Below are positions 3,601 through 41,764 of a DNA stretch of 64,000 nt, piece by piece. The DNA comes from Acidiphilium rubrum (lineage in GTDB: Bacteria > Pseudomonadota > Alphaproteobacteria > Acetobacterales > Acetobacteraceae). The translations under genes and the position numbers were made by a program. The notes beneath the pieces are model-generated. The model saw nothing but the letters and a program-made list of their open reading frames with translations. It ran no database searches and was not told where the DNA came from. Position 1 is the stretch's first letter. Every line of letters starts with the position of its first letter. The DNA lies in NCBI RefSeq assembly GCF_900156265.1, contig NZ_FTNE01000001.1:243528-307527 (forward strand), written 5' to 3'.

Positions 3601-3716
3601 GTTCTTTTTTGAAAAAAAGAACCAAAAAACTTTTTTGAGCTGGGCCATTGGCTTTGGCGATTGTACGCCTCCGGACCAAGCGAATGAGAGTTTTTGCTTC
3701 TTTTTTCAAAAAGAAG
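3601..3716. repeat. AT-rich palindromic element, full copy (family 1, copy A)
   Basis: A full copy of a dispersed element between pdhC and the GNAT gene. It opens with GTTCTTTTTT/AAAAAAGAAC (3601-3610 with 3613-3622, loop GA). The near-palindrome CAAAAAACTTTTTTG (3623-3637) follows, then a GC core with TGGGCC and GATTGTACGCC, and it closes with CTTCTTTTT/AAAAAGAAG (3697-3705 with 3708-3716). The core aligns with the copy at 38342-38458. T-runs of this density contrast sharply with the GC-rich surroundings. Function is unknown; it could act as a terminator or mRNA-processing site. Confidence 0.8.
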
Positions 3717-36881: not shown

Positions 36882-36945
36882 GAAACGATCGCCACCAACG
36901 ACGATTTGAGTTGCCGCGATGCCGGCGGTTTGGCAGCGTGCGACC

Positions 36946-37395
36946 ATGAAAGACCCGATCGGCTTTCTGGCATCCCGCGCCGGGCGCTATTCCGGTCCCG
37001 GCGTCGCGCACGACACGCGGGCGTTCACCGGTGTTCTGATCATCGATCCGCCGCTGAACCCGGCCAATCTGAGCTACCGGTTCACCGCAACCGCCACTGA
37101 TGGCGAATTGCTGCACACCGAAATCGCCTGCCTCGGCCGCAACCAGGGCGACGAGATCGAAATCGTCCACATCAGCAACAATATCCCGGGCCTCCAACAT
37201 TTCCAGCTTGCGCAATCCGCCGATCACGATCTGGTCCTGCACCACGGCAATCTGGCCGATCCGCAATCGTTCCGCGAAATCGTGCACCTGGCGTTCTCGA
37301 GCGAAACCACAGCCCGGCTGAGTTACGATTGGGCCCGCCCCGGAGAGGCAATCGTGCCGCAAAGCTGGGTCGAACTGGTGAAAGATTCCCCGTGA
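36946..37395 (+). CDS. Hypothetical protein, possibly calycin-like beta fold
   Basis: 149 residues from the ATG at 36946; an in-frame ATG at 36919 would add 9. I do not recognise a named family. Alternating hydrophobic segments (FTGVLIIDPPL, LSYRFTATATDGELLHTEIACLG, DEIEIVHISNNIPGLQHFQLAQ) suggest a beta-barrel domain. No signal peptide, membrane segment or metal motif is seen. The stop overlaps the GTG of the next gene (GTGA), so both are translated together. Confidence 0.7.
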   Translation: MKDPIGFLASRAGRYSGPGVAHDTRAFTGVLIIDPPLNPANLSYRFTATATDGELLHTEIACLGRNQGDEIEIVHISNNIPGLQHFQLAQSADHDLVLHHGNLADPQSFREIVHLAFSSETTARLSYDWARPGEAIVPQSWVELVKDSP

Positions 37396-37760
37396 GCAAC
37401 CAACAACGCGTCTTCCCCACCCTGCGCATCACCGATGAAGCGAAAGCCCGCCAATTCTATCTCGACTCGCTCGGCTTCACGCTGGACTGGGAGCACCGCT
37501 TCGCGCCCCACTATCCGGTGTTCATGCAAGTCTCGAAAGAAGGCCTCGCGATCCGCCTGTCAGCCCATGAGGGAGACGGCGCCGTCGCCGGCAACGCGCA
37601 TCTCGACGTCGCGGACGTCGACGCCTGGTATCGCGACGCCACCGCGCACGGCGTAACAACAAGCCGGCCACCGGCCGATCAGCCCTGGGGCGTGCGCGAC
37701 GTGCGGTTCCGCGATCCGGATGGCAATCAACTGGTGGTCGCGACGCGCCAGGGCGCCTGA
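37392..37760 (+). CDS. VOC-superfamily (glyoxalase/bleomycin-resistance-like) protein
   Basis: 122 residues from the GTG at 37392, chosen because it overlaps the preceding stop and starts the domain (VFPTLRITDEAKARQFYLDSLGFTLDWEHRF). The second beta-alpha-beta unit (NAHLDVADVDAWYRDATAHGV) and the closing VRDVRFRDPDGNQLVVAT with DPDGN are typical of antibiotic-binding or dioxygenase-like VOC proteins. Whether it binds a metal or a drug cannot be told. It forms a pair with the hypothetical protein upstream. Confidence 0.85.
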   Translation: MSNQQRVFPTLRITDEAKARQFYLDSLGFTLDWEHRFAPHYPVFMQVSKEGLAIRLSAHEGDGAVAGNAHLDVADVDAWYRDATAHGVTTSRPPADQPWGVRDVRFRDPDGNQLVVATRQGA

Positions 37761-37865: not shown

Positions 37866-38315
37866 TCAATAGCGTTTGTAGGGTAGGAACTTGCCGCTCA
37901 TGGTGAGTTTGACCCGGTCGCCCTTCTGGTCGGGCTGGCGCTCCATCGTCATGTCGAAATCGATCGCGCTCATGATGCCGTCGCCGAACTCTTCGTGGAT
38001 CATTTCCTTCCAGGTCGTGCCGTAGACCGAGACGAGCTCGTAGAAGCGGTAGATCAGCGGGTCGGTGGGGACAGCGGTGGGCAGGGAGCCGCGATAAGGC
38101 GCCTGGGCGAGCAGGGCGGCCTCTTCATCGTCGAGGCCGAACAGGGCGGCGGTTTTTTCGGCGGTTTCCGGAGTCATGGACATCTGGCCCATGCAGGCGG
38201 CGCAGACCCAGACCGGGGCGTGGCCGAGCTTCGCGGCGATTTCGGTCCAGGTGAGGTTTTTGGTTTTCTTGATCTTGAGGATTTTCTGGCCGAGAGCCGT
38301 TTTTTCGTCGTTCAT
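37866..38315 (-). CDS. cynS: Cyanate hydratase (cyanase)
   Basis: Bicarbonate-dependent enzyme converting cyanate to carbamate and CO2, and so to ammonia. 149 residues, full length. The N-terminal helical domain (LTWTEIAAKLGHAPVWVCAACMGQMSM) is followed by the decamer-forming catalytic domain. Catalytic residues correspond to R90, E93 and S116 (LIYRFYELVSVYG and GDGIMSAIDF), with the closing KLTMSGKFLPYKRY. No carbonic anhydrase (cynT) or cyanate transporter (cynX) is adjacent. It lies downstream of the rhodanese gene, separated by 153 bp holding the AT-rich repeat. Confidence 0.96.
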   Translation of the reverse strand: MNDEKTALGQKILKIKKTKNLTWTEIAAKLGHAPVWVCAACMGQMSMTPETAEKTAALFGLDDEEAALLAQAPYRGSLPTAVPTDPLIYRFYELVSVYGTTWKEMIHEEFGDGIMSAIDFDMTMERQPDQKGDRVKLTMSGKFLPYKRY

Positions 38316-38341
38316 TGTTGTTCCTGTTAAGTTAAGGAAGC

Positions 38342-38458
38342 GCTTCTTTTTGAAAAAAGAAGCAAAAACTTTTTTGACTCTGGGCCTGGGCCGCTCGGAT
38401 TGTGCGCCCCAGGCCCAGCGAACAAAAGTTTTTTGGTTCTTTTTTACAAAAAAGAACC
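38342..38458. repeat. AT-rich palindromic element, best full copy (family 1, copy D)
   Basis: Lies between the rhodanese and cyanase genes. The left hairpin is GCTTCTTTTT/AAAAAGAAGC (38342-38351 with 38354-38363, loop GA). The centre is an 11-bp GC stem, CTGGGCCTGGG with CCCAGGCCCAG (38380-38390 with 38408-38418). The right hairpin is GGTTCTTTTTT/AAAAAAGAACC (38435-38445 with 38448-38458, loop AC). The core GATTGTGCGCC matches GATTGTACGCC of copy A. Left arms here read GCTTC...GAAGC and in copy A GTTC...GAAC, a paired change. Confidence 0.85.
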
Positions 38459-38468
38459 CTTTTTTATC

Positions 38469-39359
38469 TTACTCAGCGGCAACCGCCAATTCCGCCGTGC
38501 CGAACGGCAGGCCTTCCTCGATCGGTAGCGACGGATCGCGGCTCCATTCGTTCCAGGAGCCGAAATAGATCGCGGTGTTGGTGATGCCGGCTTCGGCGAG
38601 GGCGACGTAGCTGTTCGAGGCGCGGGCACCCTTGAAGCAGTAGATATAGACTTTCGAGGCCGGGGTGACGCCGACGGTTGCGCATTCGGCGAGGATTTCG
38701 TTTTTGGATTTCAGCATCGGGCCGGCGGCGGTCGGTTTCATCATGCGGTACCATTCGATCCAGCGCGCACCGGGCAGGCGGCCTTTGCGGGGGCAGAAAT
38801 CCGGGCCGTAGGGCGAGGAGCTTTCGCCGACCCATTCATCGACATCGCGCACGTCGAGCAGGACGATCGATTTGTCATCGAGGGCGGCAAGAACATCGTC
38901 CTTGGTCAGGATCAGGTCCTTGCCGGCGTCGGTCATCGGGAAGGTGGCGGCGGTCGGTGTGGCGGCTTCGGTGCTGATCGGCATGCCGGCCGCGGTCCAG
39001 GCGGCGAGGCCGCCGTGGAGGATTTTGGCGTGTTTGTAGCCGAGGTATTGCAACAGGAAAAAGCCGCGGCAGGATTGGCCGAAGCCGGAGTTCATCGAAC
39101 CTTCGTAGAGCACGGCGGTCTCGCTGCCGGACAGGCCGAGGGCGCCGAACGCATCGGCGAATTTGCTGCGCAGTTCCGCCATGCCTTCGGGGGTCGAGGT
39201 GGCGAGATAGGTGAAGATGTCGTGCAGATTGACCGCGCCGGGGATGTGCCCTTCGGCATAGGCGGCGGGGTTGCGGGTATCGATCACGACGATGCCGCCG
39301 GATGACATGCCGGATGACATGGCGGTATCGAGTTCGGCGGGGGAGATGAGCACGGTCAT
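38469..39359 (-). CDS. Two-domain rhodanese (thiosulfate/3-mercaptopyruvate sulfurtransferase)
   Basis: 296 residues. The N-terminal rhodanese domain (1-130) lacks an active-site cysteine. The C-terminal domain (about 150-296) carries C241 in the active-site loop CFKGARAS. It transfers sulfane sulfur to a thiophilic acceptor such as cyanide, giving thiocyanate, or to a protein thiol. The loop is not the CGSGVTA form usual in mercaptopyruvate sulfurtransferases. It is flanked by ferredoxin upstream and cyanase downstream on the same strand, which suggests sulfur/cyano-compound chemistry. Confidence 0.9.
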   Translation of the reverse strand: MTVLISPAELDTAMSSGMSSGGIVVIDTRNPAAYAEGHIPGAVNLHDIFTYLATSTPEGMAELRSKFADAFGALGLSGSETAVLYEGSMNSGFGQSCRGFFLLQYLGYKHAKILHGGLAAWTAAGMPISTEAATPTAATFPMTDAGKDLILTKDDVLAALDDKSIVLLDVRDVDEWVGESSSPYGPDFCPRKGRLPGARWIEWYRMMKPTAAGPMLKSKNEILAECATVGVTPASKVYIYCFKGARASNSYVALAEAGITNTAIYFGSWNEWSRDPSLPIEEGLPFGTAELAVAAE

Positions 39360-39393
39360 GGTCTGGCCTCCTGGGGGGTTGGGGTGCGGCAGA

Positions 39394-39714
39394 TCAGCGT
39401 TTGGGTAGGCTTAGTTCCAGCCCATCCAGCGCCGCGGTGATCTCGATCTGGCAGCCGAGGCGGGATGTGGGGGAGAGATTGAACAGAGTGTCGAGCGTTG
39501 CGTCCTCGTCCTCGCCGATCGGTGGCAGGCGGTCGGCCCAGGCGGGGGCGACGATGACGTGGCAGGTGGCGCAGGCCATCGAGCCGTTACATTCGCCGAT
39601 GATCGGCAGCCCGGCGGCGCGGCCGATCTGCATCACGGTTTCACCCTGTTTTGCCGTGATCCGGTGTTCGGCGCCGGACTGATCGACGATGATGATGGTG
39701 GCGATGGCGCTCAT
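39394..39714 (-). CDS. 2Fe-2S ferredoxin (adrenodoxin/putidaredoxin type)
   Basis: 106 residues from the ATG at 39714. The cluster ligands are C42, C48, C51 and C88 (ECNGSMACATCHV and RLGCQI), matching the vertebrate-type spacing C-x5-C-x2-C-x36-C. Such ferredoxins pass single electrons to oxygenases or take part in Fe-S assembly. It overlaps the flavoprotein gene upstream by 4 bp, so that protein is its likely partner. No ferredoxin reductase is adjacent. Confidence 0.92.
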   Translation of the reverse strand: MSAIATIIIVDQSGAEHRITAKQGETVMQIGRAAGLPIIGECNGSMACATCHVIVAPAWADRLPPIGEDEDATLDTLFNLSPTSRLGCQIEITAALDGLELSLPKR

Positions 39715-40841
39715 GAGGCCGAAAGTGCCGCGATTTCGCGCCGCAACTGGCGGATCGAGGGGGTGATGATCGCGACGAACCAGGCCTCGCGGATGCGCCG
39801 ATCGACCGGTGAGCCGTGGATGTAGCCGCAGGCGCCCCAATGCAGCATGGCGGATTGGGTGGCTTCGAGGCTGAGTTCCGAAACATCGACGCGCACTTGC
39901 AGCACGGACCGGATATAGTCGCGGTCGCGTTCCAGCGGCGTGGCGGCGAGGGTTGCGAGGCGTTCACGGATGGCGCTGACCTTGTCGGTCGCTTCGCCCG
40001 CGCCGAATCGCTGGTGGGTGTTGCAATGCGCCTGGGTGCGGTTGGCTTCGTGCATCAGGTCGATCGCGGCATCGATCACGCCGAGTCCCATGCCGGTTTG
40101 CAGCATGACGAAGCCCGGGCGGATGCGGGCGACCATGGCGCCGAGCGGATCGGCGAGCAATTGGTCATCGGCGATGAAGGCGCGGCGGAATAGCACGGCG
40201 TAGGTGCCGGTGCCTTCGAGGGCGACGAAATGCGCGTTCTGCTTGATCGAGACGCCGTCCTGACCGATCTGCACCATCGCCATGGCGCGGTGGCTGGCAT
40301 CGTCGGCGTTTTCGAACATGGTGCCGAACCAATGGCCGTCGCCGAGGTTGGAGACCCAGGGCAGGATGCCGGAGACGAGGTAGCCGCCGGCGACGCGTTT
40401 GCCGCGCAGGCGGAACTCTTCGGTGCCGGACAGCGCCTTCATCGCGTTGGACAGGCCGGTGCCGGCCATCACTGTGCCGGCGGCGATGTCGGGCTGCAAT
40501 TTCGCGCGCAGGGCAGCGTTTTCGGTCTGTTCGAGATACCAGCCGGCGGAATCCTGGCACCAGACGCAGAAACCGCTCGACATGCAGGTGGCGGAGACCA
40601 CGGCCATCGCCTCGATCGCGTCTATCAGCGAGGGGCGGCCGAGTTTGCTGTGGGCGGCGAGGTGGAGGCCGTAGGTGCCGGCATCGCCCAGGCCGCGCAG
40701 CTGCGCGCCTGGGTAGATGCCGTCCTGGTCGATGGTGGCGGCGAGCCCGGCCAGCGCCGCGGTTTCAGCCGCGACGGCGTCGCGCGCTTCGGTGCTGGTG
40801 AGCGAGCCATGCCGGCTGATCAGTCCGATGCCGCCATCCAT
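39711..40841 (-). CDS. Acyl-CoA-dehydrogenase-fold flavoprotein (dehydrogenase or monooxygenase)
   Basis: 376 residues with the acyl-CoA dehydrogenase plan: a helical N-terminus, a middle beta domain (GTGLSNAMKALSGTEEFRLRGKRVAGGYLVSGILPWVSN) and helical C-terminal flavin domain. The typical signatures of CoA-acting enzymes are weak, and no clear catalytic Glu motif is seen. Some members of this fold are flavin monooxygenases acting on sulfur or aromatic compounds (DszC type). With a ferredoxin 4 bp overlapped and OsmC 1 bp away, a non-CoA role is quite possible. Substrate unknown. Confidence 0.82.
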   Translation of the reverse strand: MDGGIGLISRHGSLTSTEARDAVAAETAALAGLAATIDQDGIYPGAQLRGLGDAGTYGLHLAAHSKLGRPSLIDAIEAMAVVSATCMSSGFCVWCQDSAGWYLEQTENAALRAKLQPDIAAGTVMAGTGLSNAMKALSGTEEFRLRGKRVAGGYLVSGILPWVSNLGDGHWFGTMFENADDASHRAMAMVQIGQDGVSIKQNAHFVALEGTGTYAVLFRRAFIADDQLLADPLGAMVARIRPGFVMLQTGMGLGVIDAAIDLMHEANRTQAHCNTHQRFGAGEATDKVSAIRERLATLAATPLERDRDYIRSVLQVRVDVSELSLEATQSAMLHWGACGYIHGSPVDRRIREAWFVAIITPSIRQLRREIAALSAS

Positions 40842-40842
40842 G

Positions 40843-41388
40843 TCAGGCCGCCTTCACGTCGAGGGCGACGGGTTTGGTGAAGGTGTTGGCGACCGGAGAC
40901 CATTTGGTGGCGTGGGCGATCAGCGCGTCGATCTGGTCCTGCGGGGCGTCGGCGATCAGGTTGACCTTGACGCGGACGGCATCGAAGCCGACCGGCTTGG
41001 GCGATGTGTCGCCGGTGCCCCAGACGGCGGTGATGTTGATGTCCGCCTCGAGTTCGAGTTCGAGCGACTGAATCGTGAGATTTTGTGCGACGGCGTTGGC
41101 GTGGATGCCGACGGCGAGGCAGGAGCCGAGGGCGGCGAGCGAGGCTTCGGAGGGGTTGGGTGCGGTGTCGTCACCCAGCAATCCGGGGGGCTCGTCGACG
41201 ATGTAGGGCGGGAGGTTGCGGATCATGTTCAGGTGGCGGAAGCGGCCTTCGGCGATCGTTTTGCATTTCAGCGTTTTGATCGCGGTGGGGTCGGCCTTGC
41301 CCTTTTCGATCAGGGCTTCGAGGCCGGTGCGATCGATCGGTTGGAGGCAGGAGATCATGGCGGTTGGTGCGGTGGCTGACTGGCTCAT
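40843..41388 (-). CDS. OsmC-family protein
   Basis: 181 residues from the ATG at 41388. The OsmC/Ohr fold is suggested by PPGLLGDDTAPNPSEASLAALGSCLAVGIHANAVAQNLTIQSLELELEAD, with the conserved Cys in GSCLAVG. Classical Ohr/OsmC enzymes reduce organic hydroperoxides with two cysteines. A second cysteine at the Ohr position (C75 region, KTLKCKTIAEGRF) is present but off-pattern. It is the first gene of the five-gene operon; the palindrome at 41426-41449 lies 38 bp upstream. Confidence 0.87.
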   Translation of the reverse strand: MSQSATAPTAMISCLQPIDRTGLEALIEKGKADPTAIKTLKCKTIAEGRFRHLNMIRNLPPYIVDEPPGLLGDDTAPNPSEASLAALGSCLAVGIHANAVAQNLTIQSLELELEADINITAVWGTGDTSPKPVGFDAVRVKVNLIADAPQDQIDALIAHATKWSPVANTFTKPVALDVKAA

Positions 41389-41425
41389 CGTGGATCCTTT
41401 TCGGGCTGGTCCGGTTCGGAGAGGA

Positions 41426-41449
41426 GCAAGACAGAACGGTCTGTCTTGC
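41426..41449. promoter_or_regulatory. Near-perfect 24-bp palindrome, candidate TetR-family operator
   Basis: GCAAGACAGA, four bases, TCTGTCTTGC: ten perfectly paired positions on each side with one mismatch in the centre. It lies 38 bp upstream of the OsmC start. Symmetric sites with AGAC/GTCT half-sites in front of a target operon are typical for TetR-family repressors. The TetR gene at 41765 is the obvious candidate to bind it. Confidence 0.75.
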
Positions 41450-41764
41450 TTACCGGATGTCTGTTGCAAACCCCGTGCCATAACCGCGCCGCCGGGTGCG
41501 GCGAGTGATGGTGTGTTAGGCTGTCAGTGAGCAGTGGTGCGTCTTGTGGCTGCGCATGTCGGGTCCAGCGCCTTGTTTTATCCAGTGATTCGGGAGGTTG
41601 GTGTGCGGTTGGAGGGTGGTTTGGGGCTGGATTTTTCGAATTCAATTAACCGGGGATTTTCTGGCAGAATTTGTGTAGACTGCGACTCGCTATCCGCCTC
41701 AAGGGCAATCTGGCGTGGTGGTTGTGTTATATTTTAATCAGATGCCTGGAGAGTTGACGATTTT
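41450..41764. other. Gene-free stretch upstream of the TetR gene
   Basis: No credible gene is seen; a 67-codon open frame at 41534-41737 has no ribosome site or recognisable content. An AT-rich part (41630-41660 and TTATATTTTAATCA at 41727-41740) probably holds the TetR promoter, but no consensus pair is clear. AGGGCAATCTGG (41702-41713) also occurs upstream of the lytic transglycosylase. GGAGAG at 41748 can serve as the TetR ribosome site. Confidence 0.4.

Follow-up and report, generated by a model that had tools for sequence, protein, structure and literature searches.

We analysed a 64,000-nucleotide stretch of the Acidiphilium rubrum genome (contig NZ_FTNE01000001.1, positions 243,528 to 307,527 of the forward strand; hereafter the window), focusing on a minus-strand operon for an OsmC-like protein, a flavoprotein with an acyl-CoA dehydrogenase (ACAD) fold, a 2Fe-2S ferredoxin and a rhodanese-type sulfurtransferase. 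A dispersed repeat element separates the rhodanese gene from that of a cyanase, which may likewise belong to the operon transcript (Table 1). An earlier reading, made from the sequence alone, had described five same-strand genes, three of them tightly coupled, behind a strong palindrome and a divergent TetR gene. The coordinates bear this out: the OsmC and flavoprotein genes are 1 bp apart, the flavoprotein and ferredoxin genes overlap by 4 bp, and gaps of 34 and 153 bp precede rhodanese and cyanase, respectively. Palindrome and TetR gene are both present, with the palindrome lying nearer to the OsmC than to the TetR start.

Table 1 Features of the operon and its surroundings (window positions).
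Feature	Position	Strand	Basis
OsmC-like protein	40843-41388	minus	PF02566 1.5e-18, 67.5 bits (cut-off 27.5)
ACAD-fold flavoprotein, proposed key oxidoreductase	39711-40841	minus	fold, alignment and tree
2Fe-2S ferredoxin	39394-39714	minus	Fer2 2.7e-07
Two-domain rhodanese-type sulfurtransferase	38469-39359	minus	PF00581 4.8e-33, two stretches
Cyanase (CynS)	37866-38315	minus	NCBIfam TIGR00673 180.4 bits (cut-off 113.3); NF002773 219.9 (cut-off 150)
Divergent TetR-family regulator, 210 aa	41765-42397	plus	TetR_N 5.7e-14
Operator-like palindrome AGCAAGACAGA-N4-TCTGTCTTGCT	41425-41450	none	11-bp perfect arms, 4-bp centre
Dispersed imperfect inverted-repeat element, rhodanese/cyanase gap	38347-38451	none	48 nt, 79% complementary

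Counting the window's own genome each time, relatives of the flavoprotein were recovered from 26 of 299 genomes of the order (E ≤ 1e-20), 3 of 385 of the class (E ≤ 1e-30) and 24 of 398 of the phylum (family profile, E ≤ 1e-70). Genome contigs supplied 32 named loci, and 47 plasmid records carry the flavoprotein at E ≤ 1e-20. Eighty neighbourhoods were sorted into 67 loci of clade A, the branch of the flavoprotein tree that includes the window's copy, and 13 of clade B, with loci outside the tree labelled by similarity. Neighbours were counted by tblastn (E ≤ 1e-8) within 9 kb of the flavoprotein; since some loci end short, absences are upper bounds. The counts leave out L049 (compare L030), L117 (a duplicate of L068), L046 and L047 (truncated forms of L143 and L142) and the weak relatives L043-L045, as well as L189-L196; the near-duplicates L038/L112 and L041/L042 were kept.

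A thiol protein accompanies the flavoprotein throughout clade A: OsmC at 63 of the 67 loci, an AhpD-like protein at 5, one or the other at all 67. An ABC importer with at least two subunits was counted at 53, a TetR gene at 36 and a sigma-54 regulator at 21, three figures derived from tblastn matches to large families that may include unrelated genes. Cyanase is found at 41 loci and rhodanese at 30; a ferredoxin (15) or an FAD reductase (44) is encoded near 52. Clade B has an AhpD-like protein at 11 of its 13 loci, the importer at 12 and rhodanese at 1, with no cyanase and no OsmC. The module core is thus a thiol protein, the flavoprotein and the importer, to which clade-A loci often add cyanase, a sulfurtransferase and reductants. 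The full set of OsmC, flavoprotein, ferredoxin, rhodanese and cyanase occurs at 9 of the 67 clade-A loci, window included, and subsets are common; whether the five genes stay together across genomes thus receives a mixed answer. The five-gene grouping is no chance neighbourhood, and a conserved module is well supported.

Layouts vary around this core. The largest versions (L066, L068, L069, L072) run in the order TetR, ATPase, substrate-binding protein (SBP), permease, OsmC, flavoprotein, rhodanese, cyanase, ferredoxin reductase and ferredoxin, while some Halomonas-type loci have importer and regulator genes placed between OsmC and the flavoprotein, which are then ~5 kb apart. Plasmids of Synechococcus, Deinococcus, Thermomicrobium, Agrobacterium and Corynebacterium also carry core-like sets, in which one gene is annotated as an acyl-CoA dehydrogenase. 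Clade-B loci and look-alikes (L114, L130-L134, L136-L141, L192-L194), spanning Proteobacteria, Deinococcota, Thermomicrobiota and cyanobacteria, share a single order—AhpD-like or DUF4242 protein, flavoprotein, ATPase, SBP, permease—and neither cyanase nor the SBP signature His-Pro-Cys-Cys (HPCC, described below) was seen nearby. They form a second module, perhaps sulfur-related.

The flavoprotein matches the three-domain ACAD fold. Missing from it, however, is the catalytic glutamate of ACADs: Thr360-Pro361 is present in 58 of 58 aligned rows and Glu at 240 in 0 of 58, whereas comparison ACAD rows have Glu at 360 in 12 of 17 and at 240 in 3 of 17 (the MCAD and IVD positions). Two cysteines, Cys86 and Cys95, are conserved. 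In the tree, the 58 rows form one clade (98/98 support) outside the CoA-acting dehydrogenases, and four SfnB-like rows, one of them over the SfnB cut-off, form a separate clade (100/100). Conclusions from the tree are limited to these two groups: the position of one HsaA-like row (L145, so classed by reading) is not firmly supported, the tree includes no unambiguous DszC, reference rows L175 and L183 look wrongly read, and many monooxygenase-labelled rows are ordinary ACADs by their EGT motif. Two placements had been raised from the sequence, among CoA-acting dehydrogenases or among DszC-type monooxygenases. The flavoprotein falls outside the former and does not join the SfnB-like rows either; we reject an acyl-CoA dehydrogenase proper on account of the missing glutamate and the separate clade, and membership in SfnB/DszC is not supported by the tree. 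Among the 50 structural matches listed for the flavoprotein, nearly all of them ACADs, no SfnB/DszC-type or other class D monooxygenase was seen, an absence that carries no weight; ColB1 and PigA also appear there. That the gene encodes an ordinary acyl-CoA dehydrogenase among unrelated neighbours would agree with the fold and with weak family matches that are mostly to ACADs, but the glutamate lost in every row, the clade of its own and a conserved non-lipid neighbourhood make this scarcely credible.

Of its partners, the OsmC-like protein has a single invariant cysteine, Cys90, conserved in all 45 rows of one alignment and at least 97% of the 64 rows of another. Ser164-Pro165 occupies what we take to be the position of the second cysteine in Ohr/OsmC peroxidases, and the solved relative 2opl also has Ser-Pro there. 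Ohr/OsmC peroxidases use two redox cysteines, so one invariant cysteine makes a classical peroxidase role doubtful, weakening the peroxide half of the earlier suggestion that OsmC handles a peroxide or a reactive thiol. Neisseria, Moraxella and the bulk of clade B have an AhpD-like protein (PF02627) instead of OsmC, and this swap suggests a thiol relay role over OsmC-specific peroxide removal. The clade-A loci with the replacement beside the flavoprotein include L111, L113, L127 and L128 (Neisseria, Moraxella and two further loci; CMD family). In the N. gonorrhoeae stretch, a short rubredoxin-reductase remnant is all that follows the flavoprotein, and importer and cyanase were not found there.

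The ferredoxin keeps its four cysteines in 15 of 15 aligned relatives. The rhodanese has the active-site loop C241-F-K-G-A-R, with Cys241 in 31 of 32 aligned relatives, and its solved relatives are sulfurtransferases. In Caballeronia, cyanase is followed by a metallo-beta-lactamase-fold protein, placed by Pfam at superfamily level only and with counterparts in two more loci, which can be read as persulfide-dioxygenase-like.

The flavoprotein is associated with cyanase beyond chance. In the order sample, cyanase is present in 16 of 16 genomes with a close flavoprotein (E ≤ 1e-60) and in 91 of 283 others (Fisher p 3e-8), and the two genes lie within ~10 kb of each other in 12 of the 16. In the phylum sample, it is present in 13 of 16 clade-A genomes (E ≤ 1e-110; p 8e-9) and 4 of 8 clade-B-only genomes (p 0.017), each compared with 51 of 374 others. 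Because related genomes are not independent, these p-values serve as guides; the two samples also share the window's genome and a few of its kin. Seven genomes of the window's genus are listed in the order sample, three with both genes and four with neither.

One might take these loci for a cassette of cyanate uptake and cyanase next to a separate thiol/peroxide stress module of OsmC, flavoprotein and rhodanese. Indeed, L119, L120, L142 and L143 place an importer-cyanase block beside an OsmC-flavoprotein-rhodanese block, and the frequency of cyanase in order genomes without the flavoprotein fits such independence. Yet the importer belongs with the flavoprotein: clade B pairs the two with no cyanase nearby, and plasmids tend to carry the L066-type SBP and the flavoprotein jointly, at least 33 of the 46 records with that SBP being among the 40 listed of 47 flavoprotein records. 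As all genes moreover form one colinear run in loci such as L066 and L072, we regard a composite of two modules as quite improbable.

Of all components, the importer is the most informative about the substrate. Its genes match NMT1_2 and fall in the nitrate/bicarbonate class (NrtA/CmpA), the L035 type clearly so, and a candidate ligand is predicted from this. In L035-type importers, the ATPase exceeds the ntrCD cut-off (313.9 versus 291.8 bits) and the permease stays just under that of ntrB (203.8 versus 209.05). Across the importers, the nearest solved SBP relatives include NrtC, CmpC and NrtA. There are two SBP subfamilies, 26-30% alike, both with HPCC, which is present at 53 of the 55 clade-A loci with an aligned SBP (duplicate L117 not counted), the exceptions being L078, whose genes are broken, and L128. 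The Corynebacterium locus with OsmC (L195) has it too. A nitrate-reductase-linked SBP instead reads His-Pro-Glu-Lys (HPEK), as does the only match to a cluster SBP in the window's genome (26% identical); the lysine of HPEK presumably contacts nitrate. Taken together, HPCC, the flavoprotein cysteines and cyanase in clade A point to thiocyanate, a small anion whose soft end is sulfur and which would yield cyanate. Two HPCC-type plasmid SBPs occur in stretches where no flavoprotein match was seen. In one of these, on a Bradyrhizobium sp. CW1 plasmid (L189 8647-15046) and with no flavoprotein annotated, the genes next to the SBP and its importer encode a CN_hydrolase and a molybdoenzyme of sulfite-oxidase type, which may process the imported anion by a different enzymatic route.

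The substrate could also be another small sulfur compound that contains or yields a cyano or isocyanate group, such as an isothiocyanate, an organic thiocyanate, a thiocarbamate or a sulfonate-like anion, which the flavoprotein would monooxygenate while cyanase and rhodanese clear the by-products. SBP matches to the SsuA family, albeit below the cut-off, weak matches of flavoproteins to SfnB (4 of 38) and DszC models (3 of 38), and the clade-B importer without cyanase nearby would all suit such a compound. The L035-type ATPase and the nearest solved SBPs favour a small inorganic anion, however, and the recurrent neighbour families identified among the larger, annotated clusters include no hydrolase for an organic residue, so we rate this alternative as unlikely.

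Very improbable, in our estimate, is a defence against cyanide, in which the flavoprotein would oxygenate cyanide to cyanate for cyanase and rhodanese would turn part of it into thiocyanate. The side-by-side rhodanese and cyanase genes of the window would suit this role, as would the CN_hydrolase and sulfite-oxidase-type genes near the HPCC-type SBP of Bradyrhizobium, but HCN needs no ABC importer, which most clade-A loci encode, and no rhodanese gene turned up near 37 of the 67.

We thus arrive, with a probability of about 0.5, at the reading that the operon represents a pared-down version of a widespread oxidative pathway converting thiocyanate into cyanate and sulfane sulfur. The sequence-only reading had the flavoprotein and ferredoxin act on a sulfur or cyano compound and rhodanese and cyanase clear the products, a scheme that fits the importer class and the cyanase association; thiocyanate as the substrate is what we infer. 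A fuller version is tentative: a heterotrophic route from SCN- to cyanate with a ferredoxin-driven, two-cysteine ACAD flavoenzyme, a single-cysteine OsmC or AhpD-like persulfide carrier and an importer whose nitrate-type site has been remodelled to HPCC; acidophiles would have dropped this importer because their membrane potential draws thiocyanate in, and the role would have shifted from nutrition to detoxification.

The thiocyanate pathway would proceed as follows. In most relatives, where importer and flavoprotein genes are linked, the NrtA/CmpA-class ABC importer would bring in the anion. Electrons would pass from NAD(P)H via a reductase to ferredoxin or rubredoxin and on to the flavoprotein, which would oxidise SCN- at sulfur, most simply through a flavin hydroperoxide to OSCN-; as a variant, it may act as a dehydrogenase that hands electrons from SCN- to ferredoxin without oxygen. 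The single-cysteine OsmC or AhpD-like protein would accept the oxidised thiocyanate as a sulfenyl thiocyanate, and attack of water on the OsmC-bound form would release cyanate and leave a persulfide. Rhodanese, or in a few loci the metallo-beta-lactamase-fold enzyme, may then move or oxidise the sulfane sulfur. Cyanase, which turns cyanate and bicarbonate into ammonia and CO2, would dispose of the cyanate, and the TetR regulator is predicted to repress the operon as long as neither the substrate nor a thiol-reactive product is present.

Four closely related loci (the window, L029, L030 and L048) have no importer next to the operon, whereas one follows cyanase in metagenome-assembled genomes of Acidiphilium (L050) and Acidocella (L051). 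Acidophiles have an inside-positive membrane potential, of which SCN- is a permeant probe, and SCN- is harmful to them. Because such a potential draws SCN- in, uptake would cost nothing, and in Acidiphilium the operon would serve to protect the cell by detoxification. The remark from sequence alone that carbonic anhydrase and a cyanate transporter are absent is correct for the eight operon and flanking proteins scanned, the window proteins covered by this search; the lack of a transporter is a peculiarity of the window and its closest relatives.

Several observations weigh against thiocyanate oxidation by this operon. Around the window copy itself, no importer gene was found within 9 kb of the flavoprotein. 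Fold searches with the flavoprotein return acyl-CoA dehydrogenases almost throughout, rhodanese accompanies under half of the clade-A loci, and L053 and L056 (Helicobacter) consist of an OsmC-flavoprotein pair with no other partner found nearby. Cyanase was not found near 26 of the 67 clade-A loci (an upper bound), is absent from 3 of the 16 clade-A phylum genomes and is common without the flavoprotein; PMC6504805 describes it as an unreliable marker of thiocyanate pathways. L066-type importers fall under every curated cut-off shown, with SsuA (sulfonate) as the best family match of their SBP. HPCC is found in 0 of 12 clade-B SBPs, although these are 44-51% identical to the L066 type, and is missing from four further plasmid loci (L192, L193, L194, L196). 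Given clade B without cyanase nearby (13 of 13) and without HPCC (12 of 12), some members of the family, at the least, may have a different substrate.

Searches of the open-licence PMC literature, which lacks most subscription papers, brought up no description of the gene set, as judged by titles and abstract openings. If the thiocyanate reading is true, one gene marker would tie together marine and soil sulfur and nitrogen cycling in carriers such as Celeribacter, Roseibium, Halomonas, Methylocystis, acetic acid bacteria and Acidiphilium; the ACAD fold would gain new redox chemistry, and the clean-up of thiocyanate-rich mining effluents a gene target. It would also become testable why an AhpD-like protein can replace OsmC.

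With respect to regulation, the palindrome sits towards the OsmC end of the intergenic stretch (376 bp), with 36 bp between it and the OsmC start and 314 bp between it and the TetR start. Its 11-bp arms were reached in 0 of 500 mononucleotide shuffles of this stretch, and the core AGACAG-N6-CTGTCT occurs at a single place in the 4-Mb genome assembly (reversed-pattern control, 0). Reading by eye located a related palindrome, with ACAGA-/TCTGT-like arms ~4 bases apart, in 13 of 34 upstream regions, window included. The palindrome is probably a dedicated local switch and a putative operator. In the TetR regulator, Cys33 and Cys116 are kept in 37 of 37 aligned relatives.

The motif AAAAGAAGCAAAAA of the inverted-repeat element has six matches in the window (at most one mismatch; shuffles mean 0.01), two of them within the rhodanese/cyanase gap; A/T-rich inverted repeats built on it lie at 3615-3704, 7094, 9185 and 38347-38451. 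Given these other occurrences in the window, we consider the copy in the gap a dispersed element and do not think it part of the pathway. Beyond cyanase, on the plus strand, follow a gene for a glyoxalase-superfamily protein (37329-37760) and a 158-aa open reading frame (36919-37395) without a Pfam or NCBIfam match at E ≤ 0.001.

Known systems share individual features with the module. Classical cyn operons and cynABD-cynS cassettes, which we take to comprise cyanase, carbonic anhydrase, a CynR-type regulator and a cyanate transporter, resemble it in cyanase and, in its relatives, a small-anion ABC importer. Here, in contrast, the constant partners are the flavoprotein and OsmC or an AhpD-like protein, the regulator is of TetR or sigma-54 type, and neither carbonic anhydrase nor a CynR-type regulator was seen in the operon. 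The flavin monooxygenases SfnB, DszC and HsaA, presumably of ACAD fold as well, are alike in having no catalytic glutamate, in a proline at 361 (4 of 5 reference rows) and, for SfnB and DszC, in a sulfur context; the flavoprotein differs in its separate clade and in the ferredoxin or rubredoxin/ferredoxin reductase, rather than a flavin reductase, encoded beside it. The cluster on plasmid pANL of Synechococcus elongatus, which we take to be sulfur-regulated, combines a DUF4242 protein, a clade-B flavoprotein and a related ATPase-SBP-permease set near cysK. Unlike the window's module it belongs to clade B, with no HPCC and no cyanase on the stretch, although cyanase is present in the S. elongatus control genome. 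Older work reportedly links Synechococcus pANL, CysR and thiocyanate and was not used as evidence.

For thiocyanate itself, PMC5328954 and PMC6504805 describe two routes, one via carbonyl sulfide (COS) and one via cyanate by a copper thiocyanate dehydrogenase (TcDH), and report heterotrophs that use thiocyanate as nitrogen source. The COS pathway (ScnABC) is similar in its surroundings: in Thiobacillus thioparus, the thiocyanate hydrolase genes have cyanase upstream and a NitT/TauT-type ABC transporter behind them (PMC5328954). ScnABC is hydrolytic and of the nitrile-hydratase family, however, and no such genes are in the operon. On another contig of the genome, a nitrile-hydratase-like gene scores 208.8 bits with the nitrile hydratase model (cut-off 249.85) and 157.3 with that of thiocyanate hydrolase (cut-off 291.45); it belongs to a three-gene set (L198 2910-4074, contig C43) with a split beta subunit (102 and 93 aa), an alpha subunit of 198 aa and an adjoining kynureninase-like gene. 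TcDH was not among the operon proteins in family scans, which used no TcDH-specific sequence or model. TcDH itself, which contains copper and bears a Tat signal, is reported from copper-gene contexts in Thioalkalivibrio (PMC5328954) and in Thiohalobacter and Guyparkeria (PMC6504805), with ABC transporter subunits, suggested by the authors to serve copper uptake, and a sigma-54-responsive regulator nearby (PMC5328954). Our module would share with the TcDH pathway the overall chemistry, from SCN- to cyanate and zero-valent sulfur, along with nearby ABC subunits and a sigma-54-type regulator; in place of the copper enzyme, it has an ACAD-fold flavoprotein, an OsmC or AhpD-like protein and a ferredoxin.

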